Shown here piece after piece: positions 1,836 through 7,098 of a stretch of 64,000 nt of DNA (its first letter is position 1; each line of letters starts with the position of its first letter). The notes under the pieces are model-generated. The model saw only the letters and a program-made list of their open reading frames with translations, was not told the DNA's origin and ran no database searches. Position numbers and translations under genes: made by a program. The stretch comes from Peribacillus sp. ACCC06369. GTDB taxonomy: Bacteria; Bacillota; Bacilli; Bacillales; DSM-1321. Location: NCBI RefSeq assembly GCF_030348945.1, contig NZ_JAUCEN010000002.1, positions 4,464,001-4,528,000 of the forward strand, given 5' to 3'.

Positions 1836-3638
1836 TTATTTCTTTGGTAAGTCCAGATTAGTGAATTGATCGACTGGAACGACATCTTCTTCCATATCCA
1901 TCACCTTCAGTACAACCCGGTCTCCTACATTCGTCAATACAACATCGGATAGCGCATTGACCCCAGGGTCCACTGAGAATCTCTTGGCATTACCCTCGAC
2001 GATTAAATGAAATACATATCCATTTGGGAGATTGGCGTCGTTGATCCTTGTTACTTTCCCCTTTATTTCTTTCATCTCAAATCCTTTTTGTGGCGTTATA
2101 CCGCTGACTTTCCCTAAAGATGCAATCAGTTTTTTATAATTCCGGAAAGCTTCGTCTTTCGTTTTCCCGAAGACCACTTGGGGATTATCGCTATTGGCGT
2201 AAACGATCGCCACACCTTGAAACTTGCTGCCCTTTGTAACTGGAATGACATAAGTGGGAGCACCGTATATCGTATAGAAAATTCCATTAGTGGCTTTCCA
2301 TCCTGGATATTTAGACAAAAATTCACTCGCATTGGCGTTGGATTTTGCTTCCTTTCCAGTTAGAACGGACGTGACACCTTTGTAGTACGTCATTTCACCG
2401 GTTTTGGCATTGAAAACACCGTAACCTACCAAGGTTTTGGAGTTTCCTTTTGATTTAGCCCTGGTAAAGTCCACTACATAAATCAATTCGCCTTTTTCGT
2501 TAAACGTAACCTGCATATTATCCTCATTAGGTATCAAGACATCTTTCTTCGGCCCAATCAGGGATTGGTTTTTCCACCCGTGAACATATTTCCCCCAGTA
2601 GGTCCAATATTCCAGGGCTGTTTTCAGCGTGAATGTTCGATCCACCCATTCAGGTTCTTTTCCTTTTGGGTAGTATTTCGTATCCCCCGTTTCCGGATTC
2701 ACCAATACCACCCCGTCCACTACGGAACCGCTGCGGTATTTCAAATAATGTCCCACAGAAGCTACGAAGTAGGGCTTTCCATCTTCGTTCGGTTCCAAAT
2801 ATGAATCATGGATGATTTTATTCGGATAGGCCTTGCGGATGGTCCTTTCCAAATCATGATCGAGATACTGTGAGGGAGCATACAGCATCTTCCCTTTTAC
2901 CGTACTTGCCCCTTTATCCGTCGATACGGCGGAAATCAGATTATAACCTGGCGTGTACTCCGCTTTCCCGGCTTTCAAAAATCCGTCCATTTCAATGGGG
3001 GAAGTATAAGCCAATTGATCATTTATATTCGTTAGACGGTATTCGCCTTCAGTGAAATATGATGCATTTTCTATTTTATTAATCGCGGCATCGCCTTTTG
3101 CGTCTGCCATTTTCACTGTAACAAGCGGCATGGTTTTAATATCTTGAACTTCTTCCAGCTCATTTTTCTTATCGACCTTTGCCAAGCCATGCAGACCTGC
3201 GGCAAGAGTGATGGGGTAAAACAACATGATAACCCATGCTGCAATCAAAATGCCCCCTAACAAACTGTTGAAATGTACGTTCCATGGTGTTTTTGGTTTC
3301 TTCGCAGCTTCATTTTCCCTCCGATTTCGTCGGGTCATTAAAGATTCCCTGGCACTGTACACATACATGCTTGAATCAATGATGAGAATGAGCCCAAGAA
3401 TGATGGCAAAACTCGAAAAGAATGCTGCGGCAGTAAGATCCACTAACATAATATCGATAACGAAAAATAATACGGCAGCAGAAACTAAAAGTCTCAGCAC
3501 CTGTTCAATGAAAAAGGGTATATCCTTTTTAGTGATTGCGTTTGTCCATCTCTGCGGAATCAAGGAAAGTCCCAATATGGCAAATGGTATTTTCATTAAA
3601 ATTCCTTTTAAGATGAAAACGAGTAGTGAAAGTATCAT
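1836..3638 (-). CDS. Membrane protein with large extracytoplasmic domain, unknown function
   Basis: The protein has 600 residues. The first 150 hold about four membrane segments (around 2-26, 44-63, 68-90 and 128-148) with a basic cytoplasmic loop (RRNRRENEAAKK near 103-114). The remaining 450 residues are hydrophilic and probably outside the membrane. They contain repeated beta-rich elements such as VLVNPETGDTKYY and GVFNAKTGEMTYY, which suggest a duplicated fold similar to PepSY or beta-propeller blades. There are no catalytic motifs that I recognise. It stands alone, convergent to the FHA gene. A conserved Bacillus membrane protein of unknown role is the safest description. Confidence 0.75.
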   Translation of the reverse strand: MILSLLVFILKGILMKIPFAILGLSLIPQRWTNAITKKDIPFFIEQVLRLLVSAAVLFFVIDIMLVDLTAAAFFSSFAIILGLILIIDSSMYVYSARESLMTRRNRRENEAAKKPKTPWNVHFNSLLGGILIAAWVIMLFYPITLAAGLHGLAKVDKKNELEEVQDIKTMPLVTVKMADAKGDAAINKIENASYFTEGEYRLTNINDQLAYTSPIEMDGFLKAGKAEYTPGYNLISAVSTDKGASTVKGKMLYAPSQYLDHDLERTIRKAYPNKIIHDSYLEPNEDGKPYFVASVGHYLKYRSGSVVDGVVLVNPETGDTKYYPKGKEPEWVDRTFTLKTALEYWTYWGKYVHGWKNQSLIGPKKDVLIPNEDNMQVTFNEKGELIYVVDFTRAKSKGNSKTLVGYGVFNAKTGEMTYYKGVTSVLTGKEAKSNANASEFLSKYPGWKATNGIFYTIYGAPTYVIPVTKGSKFQGVAIVYANSDNPQVVFGKTKDEAFRNYKKLIASLGKVSGITPQKGFEMKEIKGKVTRINDANLPNGYVFHLIVEGNAKRFSVDPGVNALSDVVLTNVGDRVVLKVMDMEEDVVPVDQFTNLDLPKK

Positions 3639-3882
3639 GGTTTTAAAAATCTCTCCTTGTCATATATGTTTCCATTTACCCAGTTTATCACTTTTGTGCA
3701 ACAAATTTACTGTTTTTGAAATATATCGAAATAACATTTCTACCAAATCATAAAACTTATTTTTTCCAGCGATGCTACTTTTTCCGATTCATTGTTTATA
3801 TAGACGGTGAAGTTCGTTCTTTTCGATGTAGATATACCAGATATTCGATAGGATCGAACCAAACCATTCGGGAGGGATGTAA

Positions 3883-4251
3883 ATGAAAATGGAATTGGAA
3901 ACGATACTAGATCAGAGATATGAGATGGGGCTCAACCCCCATTTGGCAAAAGCGATTGGCTTGCAAAAAGCTCTGATGCTGGTACATCTTCATTCATTGA
4001 TTGAAGCTTATGGAGTGGAACGGGACGGGAGTGATTGGATTTGCCAGACTTATGAACAGTTGCAAAGGCAGATGCCCTTTTGGTCGAGGGGTACAGTCAA
4101 ACGGACGATCCTTAATCTTGAAAAGGATGGATGCCTTGTTTCATGCAACTATAACAAATGGAAAATGAATAAAACGAAATGGTATAGCATTCGTTACGAA
4201 TTAGCCATTGATATGTGTGATGACACAGATAGAACATCGCATTATCTTTGA
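3883..4251 (+). CDS. Winged-helix protein of the phage/plasmid replisome-organizer (DnaD N-like) type
   Basis: At 122 residues, the protein reads LNPHLAKAIGLQKALMLVHLHS, then WICQTYEQLQRQMPFW, RGTVKRTILNLEKDGCLVS and NKTKWYSIRYE. This pattern is familiar from the N-terminal winged-helix domain of phage and mobile-element replication proteins, where W/TYE, FWS, TxKR and KWYxIxYE are conserved. GGGAGGG lies 8 bases before the ATG. It is followed 44 bp later by a 466-residue gene on the same strand and then by phased DnaA-box-like sites, so a role in replication initiation or in its control is likely (inference). It has only the DNA-binding part; a C-terminal helicase-loader domain is absent. 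Confidence 0.7.
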   Translation: MKMELETILDQRYEMGLNPHLAKAIGLQKALMLVHLHSLIEAYGVERDGSDWICQTYEQLQRQMPFWSRGTVKRTILNLEKDGCLVSCNYNKWKMNKTKWYSIRYELAIDMCDDTDRTSHYL

Positions 4252-4295
4252 AAAGTGACACTGCGTCATAGAAAAATCAAAGGGGACAAAACCGT

Positions 4296-5696
4296 ATGAT
4301 TTATGAAGAAACCTACCAATACCTATTAAGAAATGTATCTTCCACTGAATTCGATACGTGTTTGTACGCCTTGCTTCACAGTGATTGGGATGGGGTCATC
4401 CAGAGCCCGCTTCATATGATGGCCCGAGGAGTCGGGACAACAGAAAAGTACTTAAGGCAGATCATCAATAAATTCACCGCCCCTCAAGGATCACTAAAAG
4501 AAGTGTTTGTGCCTGTTCATCACGGCGAAGACATTTTATATAAGTTTAACCTGGGGCCTGCAAGCAATCTTGGTTTTAACAGGAAGACGGACCGTTACTG
4601 CAAGAAATACCGTTTCTTTTATAGCGATGCTTTCAAAATCTTAACGATTCATGGAAAACGGCTGCTGCTGATGGGCGCTTTTCGAATGTCTGTTTTGAAG
4701 TCTGAGGAAGTACTATTCGATTATAGTGAAATCGTTCCTGATTCCAGCTCGCTCTTCACTAGGCAGCGCTTATTGGATGCAATCGATGCAGTCCATGACG
4801 CTTTAGGCCATTTAGTGAGGATTTCTTTTGCAAGCAGAGCTTTTTCAAAGAAAGAAGTTCTGGTATTCACCTTTACCGGAGGAGTCTTGGAGCAGTATAA
4901 GGAAAATCGGGCGGAAAGGACATTGTTGCGAAGAACGATTTTTAACTCTGGCTTCCTTGGGCATATCAATGATTCTGTATGCAAGGAATTGGAACGGATC
5001 GGCAAATATATTTTCCGTTCATTTCTACAAGAAGCGACAAATCCAGGGGTTTCCAATGATACCCAACAGGAACTTCTGAAATTAGCCCGTTTCGTCTATT
5101 CTCATTCCCTTAAGAAATTTGGCACGGCCCTTCCTTCCAATAAGCAGTTACTTCTGGCACCAAAACAAGCTTCTGCCTATTTAAGCAAGATCATTTATAA
5201 CGAAACCCTGGAACAGATGGTGAAATTTTCCCACCAGGCGGAATCCATCAAAAGCTTGCTTGAACGTGTTCATTTTCATAGGGACATCTCCGAGAAAGCT
5301 CTAGGCCGGGAAGTGAATGATTTGGAAATGGCTGACCATATCGAACCCATTCTCCATAAATACCATCAGGCGGAATTCATCCGCAATGTACTGAACGGCT
5401 GGTGCGAGACATGGCTCATTTCCCGTGTGAAGACAGTGACCGAAGAACTGAGAGCAGAAGGAAAAAAGAAAAGAACGCATGATGATAAGCAGATTGCTGC
5501 CGAATATATGACACGCATTAGAAACGATACATATGGACAGTTGGACAGGCTGTTGACCTTGATCCTTAAATTCGGCAACCATGCAGTGGCCCCGTCTGCC
5601 CGGAATTCTCCCCTCACAAAGAAAAAGGAAATCCTCCAATCCTATTTCGCAATCCAAAAGGAGCGTCTGGATGTTCTCTCTATTTCCACTTGCTAA
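4296..5696 (+). CDS. Protein of unknown family, probable replication-linked partner
   Basis: This is a 466-residue soluble protein with no membrane segments and no motif I can name. The first 70 residues resemble another helix-turn-helix fold (HMMARGVGTTEKYLRQIINKF). The middle is rich in basic and aromatic residues, and the C-terminal half is helical and charged (RAEGKKKRTHDDKQI near 387). AAAGGGG lies upstream of the ATG. It follows the winged-helix gene by 44 bp and ends 60 bp before a strong terminator and 100 bp before an array of DnaA-box-like repeats. Its place suggests an initiator or origin-binding protein, but nothing in the sequence proves it. Confidence 0.65.
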   Translation: MIYEETYQYLLRNVSSTEFDTCLYALLHSDWDGVIQSPLHMMARGVGTTEKYLRQIINKFTAPQGSLKEVFVPVHHGEDILYKFNLGPASNLGFNRKTDRYCKKYRFFYSDAFKILTIHGKRLLLMGAFRMSVLKSEEVLFDYSEIVPDSSSLFTRQRLLDAIDAVHDALGHLVRISFASRAFSKKEVLVFTFTGGVLEQYKENRAERTLLRRTIFNSGFLGHINDSVCKELERIGKYIFRSFLQEATNPGVSNDTQQELLKLARFVYSHSLKKFGTALPSNKQLLLAPKQASAYLSKIIYNETLEQMVKFSHQAESIKSLLERVHFHRDISEKALGREVNDLEMADHIEPILHKYHQAEFIRNVLNGWCETWLISRVKTVTEELRAEGKKKRTHDDKQIAAEYMTRIRNDTYGQLDRLLTLILKFGNHAVAPSARNSPLTKKKEILQSYFAIQKERLDVLSISTC

Positions 5697-5755
5697 CATT
5701 CACACAGAGCATTAAGTTTCGTGTGGTTCCCCATGCCTTTTTATATAGATTGTTC

Positions 5756-5783
5756 AAGAGAACGAATCCGTTCTCTTTTTTTT
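5756..5783 (+). terminator. Intrinsic terminator of the 3.9-5.7 kb gene pair
   Basis: The perfect stem AAGAGAACG / CGTTCTCTT with a 4-base loop AATC runs into a row of T residues. It separates the two replication-like genes from the DnaA-box array that follows. Confidence 0.85.
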
Positions 5784-5798
5784 GCGGTCTTTGGGGTA

Positions 5799-5910
5799 TG
5801 TGGATAACGAATGTCGACTGTGAATTGCAGAATGACGACTGTGGTTTGGGGATGGCCCACTGTGGATTTCCCCTTTGAATTCGTGGGTTGCATATGAATC
5901 ATGTGGATAA
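5799..5910 (-). other. Six phased DnaA-box-like repeats (candidate origin or DnaA-binding cluster)
   Basis: Six 9-mers lie in the same direction at a near-constant spacing of 20-21 bp (two helical turns). They are TGTGGATAA at 5799, TGTGAATTG at 5819, TGTGGTTTG at 5840, TGTGGATTT at 5861, CGTGGGTTG at 5882 and TGTGGATAA at 5902. The first and last are perfect complements of the DnaA box TTATCCACA; the inner four deviate at one to three positions. Regular phasing on one face of the helix is the hallmark of iterons or of cooperative DnaA binding. No coding sequence covers the region, and nothing else was recognised between 5911 and 6129. Confidence 0.7.
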
Positions 5911-6129
5911 GAGTACTTGGTCAGCAGGTTGTTGTGACAGCAGACCCTAACCCCTGTAAGGGCAAGGGCATTTATAAATGAGTTATCCAAGGGTCTAAGA
6001 AAACGGTCTATATAAAGGAACTGAAAAAGATTCTGATCATCAGTATGAACAAGGAGTTGAATGTGGCGGGCCCATTTAAGAAAGGAATGAAAAAAGGCCC
6101 CCATTTGAATGGATGACCCTCATACGTTT

Positions 6130-7098
6130 TTACGGTATTAATAATATCTTCCCCGTACTTTTCCGGCTTTCAAGAAGTCTATGTGCATCCGCCCCATTTT
6201 CCAACGAAAAAAGAGTCGGTTTTTCAATGAGGATTTTCCCTGACATGATCCATTCAAACAACTCTGCGGTCCTTCTTTTCCGTTCTTCATGGGTAGTCAA
6301 GACGTTCCAGAGGTCTCCACCTATCAATGCTTTCGATGTATCCATCAACATTCTCGGATCGATTTTCTCTGGATCTCCGCCCGCCATTCCAAAGAAAACG
6401 ACCGTTCCACCAGTCTTGGTCGCCTCGAAACTATCCAGCAAAGTTTGTCCTACTGATTCATAAACGACATTAACGCCTTTCCCGCCGGTCACATCCTTAA
6501 TGGAATTCACCCAGTCGGATCCGTAAAGGAAAACATGATCGGCACCCGCTTGTTTGGCAACAGCCGCTTTATCATTTGATGAAGTCAAGCCAATGACCTG
6601 ACCGCCCTTCATCCTGATCATCTGTGTCAATAATTGACCGACTCCGCCTGCAGCTGCATGGACCAGAATGGTTTCCCCTTCTTTTACTGGATAACTGTCA
6701 TGAGTTAAATATTGCGCAGTCAATCCTTGAAGTAAAACGGAAGCGGCCGTTTCAAAGGAAATGCCCTCAGGCAGCGGTAGCAGTTTATCCGCTGGAACTG
6801 AAACCAGCTCCGCATTGGCATGGGGAACATCAGCAAATCCGACACGATCACCTGCTTTCACATGATGAACATCTTCCCCGACATATTCGATGACCCCCGC
6901 CCCTTCATAACCTAGAATAAATGGAGGATCACCCACCAAGTGATAATTCCCTTTCCTTCTATATACATCAGCAAAATTCAATCCGATTGCTTTCATTCGA
7001 ACGATCACGGTTGATTTTGAATGTTCAGGTTCTGCAATTCCCCTTACAGACAGGACTTCCGGTCCGCCGAAATTATCAAAGACAAGTGCTTTCATCAT
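6130..7098 (-). CDS. Zinc-free quinone oxidoreductase / NADPH:quinone reductase family
   Basis: This protein of about 322 residues belongs to the medium-chain dehydrogenase/reductase family, quinone oxidoreductase branch. It shows the N-terminal GroES-like fold (GLNFADVYRRKG, then GYEGAGVIEYVG), the NADPH-binding Rossmann turn HAAAGGVGQ near residue 148, and LTSSNDKAAVAKQAGADHV. The family reduces quinones or enones with NADPH. The start is chosen at ATG 7098 (or 7095) because AAGGGAG lies just upstream and the family motif MKALVF begins there. The open frame runs further upstream, but that part overlaps another small gene. It is monocistronic; the substrate is unknown. Confidence 0.85.
   Translation of the reverse strand: MMKALVFDNFGGPEVLSVRGIAEPEHSKSTVIVRMKAIGLNFADVYRRKGNYHLVGDPPFILGYEGAGVIEYVGEDVHHVKAGDRVGFADVPHANAELVSVPADKLLPLPEGISFETAASVLLQGLTAQYLTHDSYPVKEGETILVHAAAGGVGQLLTQMIRMKGGQVIGLTSSNDKAAVAKQAGADHVFLYGSDWVNSIKDVTGGKGVNVVYESVGQTLLDSFEATKTGGTVVFFGMAGGDPEKIDPRMLMDTSKALIGGDLWNVLTTHEERKRRTAELFEWIMSGKILIEKPTLFSLENGADAHRLLESRKSTGKILLIP

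Follow-up and report, generated by a model that had tools for sequence, protein, structure and literature searches.

Does a run of DnaA-box-like words behind a gene of no recognized family mark an origin of replication on a bacterial chromosome, and if so, where did such an element come from? The question is raised by a 64,000-nucleotide stretch of Peribacillus sp. ACCC06369 (the window), which is chromosomal and covers positions 4,464,001-4,528,000 of the 5,466,422-nucleotide contig C2 (NZ_JAUCEN010000002.1). An initial annotation had described two open reading frames (ORFs), a terminator, and six 9-mers at this site, all of which are present, and had read them as a possible cryptic origin. 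We find that the unit at the locus consists of a gene for a 466-residue protein, a terminator, a phased array of 9-mers, and a block of 12-13-bp repeats. The explanation that we favor, with a confidence somewhat above even, is that this unit is one half of a megaplasmid origin, the half with the array and the unwinding element, captured and domesticated on the Peribacillus chromosome. The argument is built on the cis architecture, its conservation, selection on the gene, the plasmid context of its relatives, and one coincidence with a GC-skew minimum. Positions are those of the window unless prefixed with C2, and the genomes and loci compared carry G and L numbers.

The phased array, the repeat block, and the 466-residue protein

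The array (5799..5910, + strand) consists of six same-strand 9-mers spaced 20-21 bp apart, with starts at 5799, 5819, 5840, 5861, 5882, and 5902, that is, tandem same-strand sites at helical spacing as in iteron origins; the Peribacillus motif is TGTGgATTG. Mismatches to TGTGGATAA run 0, 3, 3, 2, 4, and 0, so that the first and last boxes are perfect (two of six), as initially noted, and the label DnaA-box-like, exact for the outer two, is generous for the middle four, which by hand count differ from TGTGNATAA at 2, 3, 2, and 4 positions. The first box is absent from 11 of the 12 close-group genomes, and among the aligned genomes it is perfect only here and in G007. When both strands of 424 kb of the chromosome were scanned for six 9-mers at 20-21 bp with a summed mismatch of at most 12, the array was the single place found, and the same criterion gave no place in 4.24 Mb of first-order Markov sequence. 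Scored with a matrix of genus boxes (36 distinct Peribacillus box words; the G008 boxes, gapped words, and box 5799 were left out), the array reaches 68.4, and the runner-up in the same chromosome, at 52.5, is an intergenic tandem repeat outside the window at C2:4,388,979, made up of a 21-bp CTCGTGAATT / ACTCGTGAATTTAGCAGTTTT repeat with CGATAAA-type repeats adjoining. Within the 424 kb, over which the chance frequency that the initial annotation named as a refuting count was checked, the array is thus unique by its DnaA-box score, but phased arrays as such occur elsewhere, because this 21-bp repeat also scores high by the genus matrix.

Downstream of the array lies a block that the initial annotation had missed: the 12-13-bp repeats GGGTCTAAGAAAAC GGTCTATATAAAG GAACTGAAAAAG ATTCTGATCATC AGTATGAACAAGG (5991..6054, + strand), which resemble an unwinding element and show in the autocorrelation; most of the loci have such a block. 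Averaged over 19 genus rows and 5 other loci, with the blocks cut out by eye and no shuffle control, the autocorrelation is highest at lags 12 (0.43), 24 (0.42), and 13 (0.39), the next value being 0.31. A 12-13-bp periodicity 3' of the array is seen at the present locus and in L073, L052, L053, and L087, as well as, by eye, in L150. The least stable 60-bp window within 2.4 kb starts inside the block in L052 and L053 and falls at the block end or ∼50 nt beyond it in L082 and L087. The block is kept in G008, though no 466-residue gene was found there. Between gene and array lies an intrinsic terminator, AGAGAACGAATCCGTTCTCT followed by a T run (5757..5783, + strand), with a similar hairpin and T run in 12/12 close-group rows as judged by eye; an Rfam search over 5600-6200 at E up to 1 found no RNA element.

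The gene itself (4296..5696, + strand) encodes a protein of an undescribed family with at least 59 protein clusters, a candidate array-binding origin protein. As the initial annotation had it, the family is not a listed one: the 466-residue protein has no significant match in Pfam, PHROG, or NCBIfam (best E = 0.11), no known family recurs at a significant score when 48 members are compared with the profile libraries (weak single-member matches only; best Pfam E = 0.00044, 2/48; best PHROG E = 0.0013, 2/48), and the family profile has no significant match among PDB chains (best E = 0.13). An iteron origin also has an initiator of a known Rep family, and in this respect the locus departs from one, the 466-residue family giving no match to Rep_3, RPA, or RepA_N models. 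In both protein-database searches the best 8000 candidates were scored, and the profile re-search added one short protein; the alignment holds 47 of the first 58 clusters plus the present protein, short and near-duplicate ones having been left out.

Conservation and selection within Peribacillus

The 466-residue gene was matched in 18 of 61 genomes (the present one included), all of this genus, and the noncoding stretch behind it in 19 of the 36 Peribacillus genomes. Of 18 relatives, 16 have the site between a gene for a 600-residue protein and a quinone oxidoreductase gene, the exceptions being G025, where the 600-residue gene was not found, and G011, where the contig ends. A full-length open frame occupies this common site in 14 genomes; in G025 a stop falls within the matched stretch and the database protein has 450 residues, and in G016 and G028 the 600-residue gene is present only in pieces and no match to the 466-residue gene was found. 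Against 10 relatives with intact genes, the ratio of nonsynonymous to synonymous substitution (dN/dS) is 0.116-0.186 at dS 0.35-0.90, and the dS of two neighboring genes (0.27-1.30) is close to this; together, the two results argue for vertical inheritance under purifying selection that is slightly relaxed.

Selection is also visible in the noncoding part. The initial annotation had held that lack of conservation at orthologous loci would speak against an origin; between two clades of 12 and 6 genomes (G008 left out), identity is instead 0.753 in box columns versus 0.478 in spacers, and 0.729 in the repeat block (5975-6064) versus 0.489 in the intervening flank (5911-5974). Shifting the box register lowers the identity in both directions, if slowly leftward (0.750 at -1). 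The difference between boxes and spacers bears on the idea that the array is an eroded tandem repeat of the intergenic kind seen elsewhere in the genus, to which the high score of CTCGTGAATT at C2:4,388,979 and the CGATATA repeats in G013, G017, G011, and G034 lend some color; given that the boxes outlast their spacers and that the array recurs in other genera (see below), we consider this extremely improbable. The CGATATA repeats, runs of the TTTTCGTCGATATAATTC type, lie between the 466-residue stop codon and the array at L020, L021, L023, and L024 (in G034, G011, G013, and G017, respectively).

A further observation concerns G007 (Peribacillus butanolivorans), which has three family places (L073, L074, and L066): a paralogue (52-54% identity) that is intact and has an array and repeats of its own, a fragment, and an N-terminally truncated orthologue.

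Relatives on large plasmids

Among 397 genomes of the order (135 genera), the family, which looks small, was found in 5, all Peribacillus. Elsewhere it is present on three plasmids, namely Niallia taxi pMEGANia (1.44 Mb), Priestia megaterium pFDU301A (1.08 Mb), and a Cytobacillus solani plasmid (270 kb), and also on a contig of Bacillus sp. FJAT-29937, on a second Niallia contig, and on one IMG/VR contig (L087, 29% identity). A phage origin was considered and rejected: phage records hold no relative at E up to 0.1, the one IMG/VR contig having one.

Six-unit arrays with a 20-22-bp spacing follow the gene in 7/7 distant homologues tested, scoring 6.5-9.3 standard deviations above 1000 dinucleotide shuffles per locus (0/1000 at each). 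The seven comprise six loci outside the genus, of which L052 and L084 are near-identical Niallia loci, and the Peribacillus paralogue L073; the fragments L074 and L085 were left out. CTGTGAATTG is the first unit in 6/8 distant loci. Within the plasmids, too, the arrays stand out: on the complete Cytobacillus plasmid the family array is the best by far (31.2 versus 6.4), on the sampled pMEGANia it scores 36.6 versus 10.6 for the next, and in 800 kb scanned of pFDU301A scores above 20 occur at three places only, of which one belongs to the known homologue, one lies behind a second homologue, and one is a minisatellite. Of the two proteins that the initial annotation proposed to look for beside arrays in other genomes, the 466-residue one recurs there; the other, a 122-residue ORF, is optional.

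Five of the six plasmid or viral contexts have a Rep-type gene at most 3.2 kb upstream, two of these genes being only weakly Rep_3-like; no Rep-type gene lies beside the chromosomal locus. Module 1 of pFDU301A has an RPA initiator (PF10134, E = 2e-12) and 13 iterons upstream, with 7 more downstream. In pMEGANia there are 11 iterons and a 480-residue protein whose match to Rep_3 does not reach the cutoff (E = 0.0044), and module 2 of pFDU301A has a relative (33%) of that 480-residue protein and 15 copies of a 64-bp repeat. On the FJAT-29937 contig a Rep3_N gene (E = 2.5e-40) lies 3.2 kb upstream, and a CHC2 primase, two SSB genes, and DnaN lie downstream; L087 has an RPA gene 0.5 kb upstream and an Alp7A-like actin gene downstream, and is, judged by its sequence, a plasmid or phage-plasmid. 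Two more pairs of RPA and 466-family clusters have matching longest contigs (10,539 and 338,157), which suggests linkage. As side observations, the two modules of pFDU301A (NZ_CP045273.1; ∼839.7-844.7 and 1064-1068 kb) differ in Rep type and iterons, and L087 (118 kb, catalogued as viral) has ORFs that by eye resemble thymidylate synthase, dihydrofolate reductase, and an amidase.

GC skew was computed for the complete Cytobacillus plasmid and for samples of pFDU301A and pMEGANia (40 stretches of 20 kb; 920-976 kb of pMEGANia in full). The module lies close to the skew minimum, as would be expected of a replication start, in one of the three plasmids, pMEGANia: its skew has two arms with a minimum at 958,536, ∼3 kb from the family gene (954,100-955,539) and 2.5 kb from the repeat block.

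Partition sites on large plasmids likewise consist of phased direct repeats next to the gene of a protein that binds DNA, and the 466-residue protein and its array might accordingly form a centromere-like segregation complex. We regard this as quite improbable: the 12-13-bp block, the Rep, primase, SSB, and DnaN neighbors, and the pMEGANia minimum point to initiation, and both the Cytobacillus plasmid and L087 carry separate genes for actin-type partition. A sharp GC-skew minimum adjoins a ParM/StbA gene at ∼242.6 kb of NZ_CP085713.1, a plasmid without a Rep_3, RPA, or RepA_N match.

It should be noted that a number of observations weigh against reading the module as half of a megaplasmid origin. 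The Cytobacillus plasmid gave no match to Rep_3, RPA, or RepA_N, no repeat block was found behind its array, and its skew minimum lies ∼45 kb from the module (a direct-repeat search at that minimum returned two-copy repeats only). pFDU301A carries two strong Rep_3 genes away from its modules, and at the 27-kb sampling of its skew, module 1 is ∼130-200 kb from the broad low at 864-938 kb and module 2 ∼20-40 kb from the near edge of the low. Even on pMEGANia the skew is silent on which half is the start, because the Rep gene and the iterons lie within ∼7 kb. L082 shows no 12-13-bp periodicity by autocorrelation, and the repeat block of the present locus is not the least stable stretch there. The 466-residue family shows no homology to the RPA (PF10134) initiators (hhalign probability 0.1), the distant boxes, as compared below, fit the DnaA consensus and the family motif equally well, and a motif found upstream of the Peribacillus gene (see below) is in none of five plasmid or viral loci clearly above shuffles (best L054, 60/500). 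On the host chromosome, finally, GC skew is negative in 36/36 windows between 4.26 and 4.69 Mb with no inflection, the 466-residue gene is broken or gone in four genomes (interrupted in G031, reduced to its first 72 residues in G035, without its N-terminal half in G007, and not found in G008), and its dN/dS exceeds the 0.055-0.132 of its two neighbors.

The last three points would also suit a decaying relic of an integrated plasmid, functionless by now. We hold this to be improbable, as the dN/dS values remain low at substantial dS, the boxes are kept over the spacers, and 14 genomes retain an open frame. What stands of the original proposal is an origin-like element of plasmid descent, seen in the megaplasmid homologues near Rep-type genes and in the pMEGANia minimum; an active main origin in the host chromosome is not supported, the skew being negative throughout the 4.26-4.69 Mb covered.

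A possible role and its relation to known origins

Which protein would read the array? The DnaA box consensus is given as TTATNCACA in the available text of PMC4447404. Across the 36 Peribacillus words position 8 is T (75%) and position 9 is G (70%), against an A at both positions of the DnaA consensus, and the motif ends in TTG rather than TAA. By hand average, the 29 units of five distant arrays have 2.4 mismatches per unit to TGTGNATAA versus 2.3 to the family motif TGTGNATTG, and four plasmid or viral arrays have 2.2-3.3 per unit to the DnaA consensus. One alternative, which we think possible but unlikely, is that the locus is a chromosomal DnaA-binding cluster, where DnaA binds the array for titration or for the timing of initiation, in the way of the B. 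subtilis clusters or of datA in E. coli, and the 466-residue protein may modulate it. It is favored by the two perfect boxes, by the last box, which is TGTGGATAA in 10/12 close genomes, by the near-equal mismatches of the distant arrays to the two motifs, and by the finding, in the same partially available source (PMC4447404), that functional B. subtilis DnaA boxes can carry three mismatches. The bases at positions 8-9 speak against it, as do the last box outside the close group (TGTGGATTG or TGTGGATGG in 5/6 genomes), plasmid units such as TGTTATTTG that lack the TGTG core, and, in a scan of 466-family loci, the presence of an array behind every family gene tested. Because the 466-residue family is common to all loci, we infer that it is the array binder, alone or with DnaA.

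Under the explanation that we favor, descent from one half of a megaplasmid origin, the module would have entered the chromosome before the split of the Peribacillus clade whose members also share the 600-residue neighbor gene. In the plasmid form, the other half would be a Rep-type gene (RPA, Rep_3, or distantly Rep_3-like), usually with iterons of its own, a short distance upstream. The 466-residue protein, possibly with DnaA, would bind the six degenerate boxes, which recur every two helical turns and face the same side of the DNA, and the resulting complex would help to open the adjoining 12-13-mer block in the manner of DnaA or RctB; in Peribacillus the protein may have a further target in the related sequence at the promoter of its gene. 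On the chromosome the copy is probably no main origin, because the Rep half is absent, and its role might be that of a regulatory or titrating site or a defense against related plasmids. Binding, opening, and a chromosomal role are, in this scheme, predictions from sequence comparison.

A more far-reaching version, which we think rather doubtful, is that the family constitutes a new class of proteins that open origins, encoded on plasmids as a substitute or partner for DnaA, reading DnaA-box-like arrays and opening 12-13-mers beside a Rep/iteron unit. Large Bacillaceae plasmids would then have bipartite, two-protein origins, and the chromosomal copy, though domesticated, would still work as a secondary origin or as a regulator of initiation. 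Either way, the module provides an origin layout for Bacillaceae plasmids (two of them above 1 Mb) that is defined by sequence and can be tested, around a protein that matches no searched family. It is a natural example of parts of a plasmid origin that selection keeps on a chromosome, could reveal how such replication parts turn into chromosomal regulators, and supplies a search pattern for further modules.

Of the remaining features, the 122-residue ORF (3883..4251, + strand) was correctly identified as DnaD-type in the initial annotation: residues 15-112 match PHROG 6493, a DnaD-like helicase loader (E = 1.5e-22), over the N-terminal winged-helix region, although a Pfam profile search gave no match. 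Its proposed part as the defining partner of the array did not survive comparison. Among 18 relatives it is at the site only in the present genome and in G007, no homology to the 466-residue family was found, and the candidate unit of DnaD-like ORF and array was rejected as the ORF is not conserved. In G006 and G022 the sequence joins position 3805 to 4116-4137, inside the 122-residue codons, and then to 4292; a deletion scar within the codons means that the ORF was once present and then deleted. It has 13 further matches in the genus, 11 of them in open frames of 188-315 residues.

Upstream of this ORF lies a conserved element, GATGCTACTTTTTCC...GTTTATATAGAC (3771..3805, no strand assigned), a candidate promoter or operator found by sequence comparison, in which TTTATATAGAC reappears, as its reverse complement GTCTATATAAA, among the downstream repeats. 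By eye, a similar element (TGCTACTTTT ... TTTAT) precedes 13/13 Peribacillus copies. GTCTATATAAA is matched upstream at 10-11 of 11 positions in the present locus, L055, L073, L074, and L071 (in L071 in the opposite orientation), and at 9 of 11 in L068, where 65/500 shuffles do equally well. Farther away, profile searches identify at 1005-1697 a gene that combines an FHA domain with a DNA-binding domain of the response-regulator type and that converges on the gene of the 600-residue protein (1836-3638); the latter has no convincing family and is present at ≥85% identity in 18/36 genus genomes, in two of them matched in pieces.

Searches of the open-licence PMC literature listed no title or opening of an abstract that describes the family or the module, and we do not claim membership in a class of origins, because the 466-residue protein matched no initiator family tested. 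The helicase loaders of PHROG 6493 share the N-terminal winged-helix region with the 122-residue ORF, which differs in being that N-terminal part alone. B. subtilis has clusters of DnaA-box-like sites outside oriC, likewise in a Bacillaceae chromosome (PMC5295017, available in part); the present array differs in that a gene of its own and a block of repeats go with it, in occurring also on plasmids, and, in Peribacillus, at positions 8-9 of the motif. Iteron plasmid origins such as RK2 oriV, F, and P1 combine a direct-repeat array, 13-mers of the DNA unwinding element, and DnaA-box-like sequences, and the RK2 element has four 13-mers, every one of which is needed (both from the accessible part of PMC4980987). 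They differ from the present module in that the 466-residue protein shows no match to Rep_3, RPA, or RepA_N models and in that its array comes in addition to the Rep iterons.

The closest layout is that of ori2-min from the chromosome II origin of Vibrio cholerae, the site of RctB, which according to the text available from PMC6090056 has six head-to-tail 12-mers with 10-11 bp between them, one DnaA box, and an AT-rich region. The likeness, as with RK2, is one of layout. The 466-family boxes lack GATC, and the plasmid modules usually lie near a separate Rep-type gene with iterons, which the chromosomal copy is without. Shared with ori2, as far as that source describes it, are an initiator site at the initiator promoter, represented here by a related sequence and in Peribacillus only, and six sites arranged head to tail with a period of about two helical turns, together with an adjoining AT-rich region and a single DnaA box.

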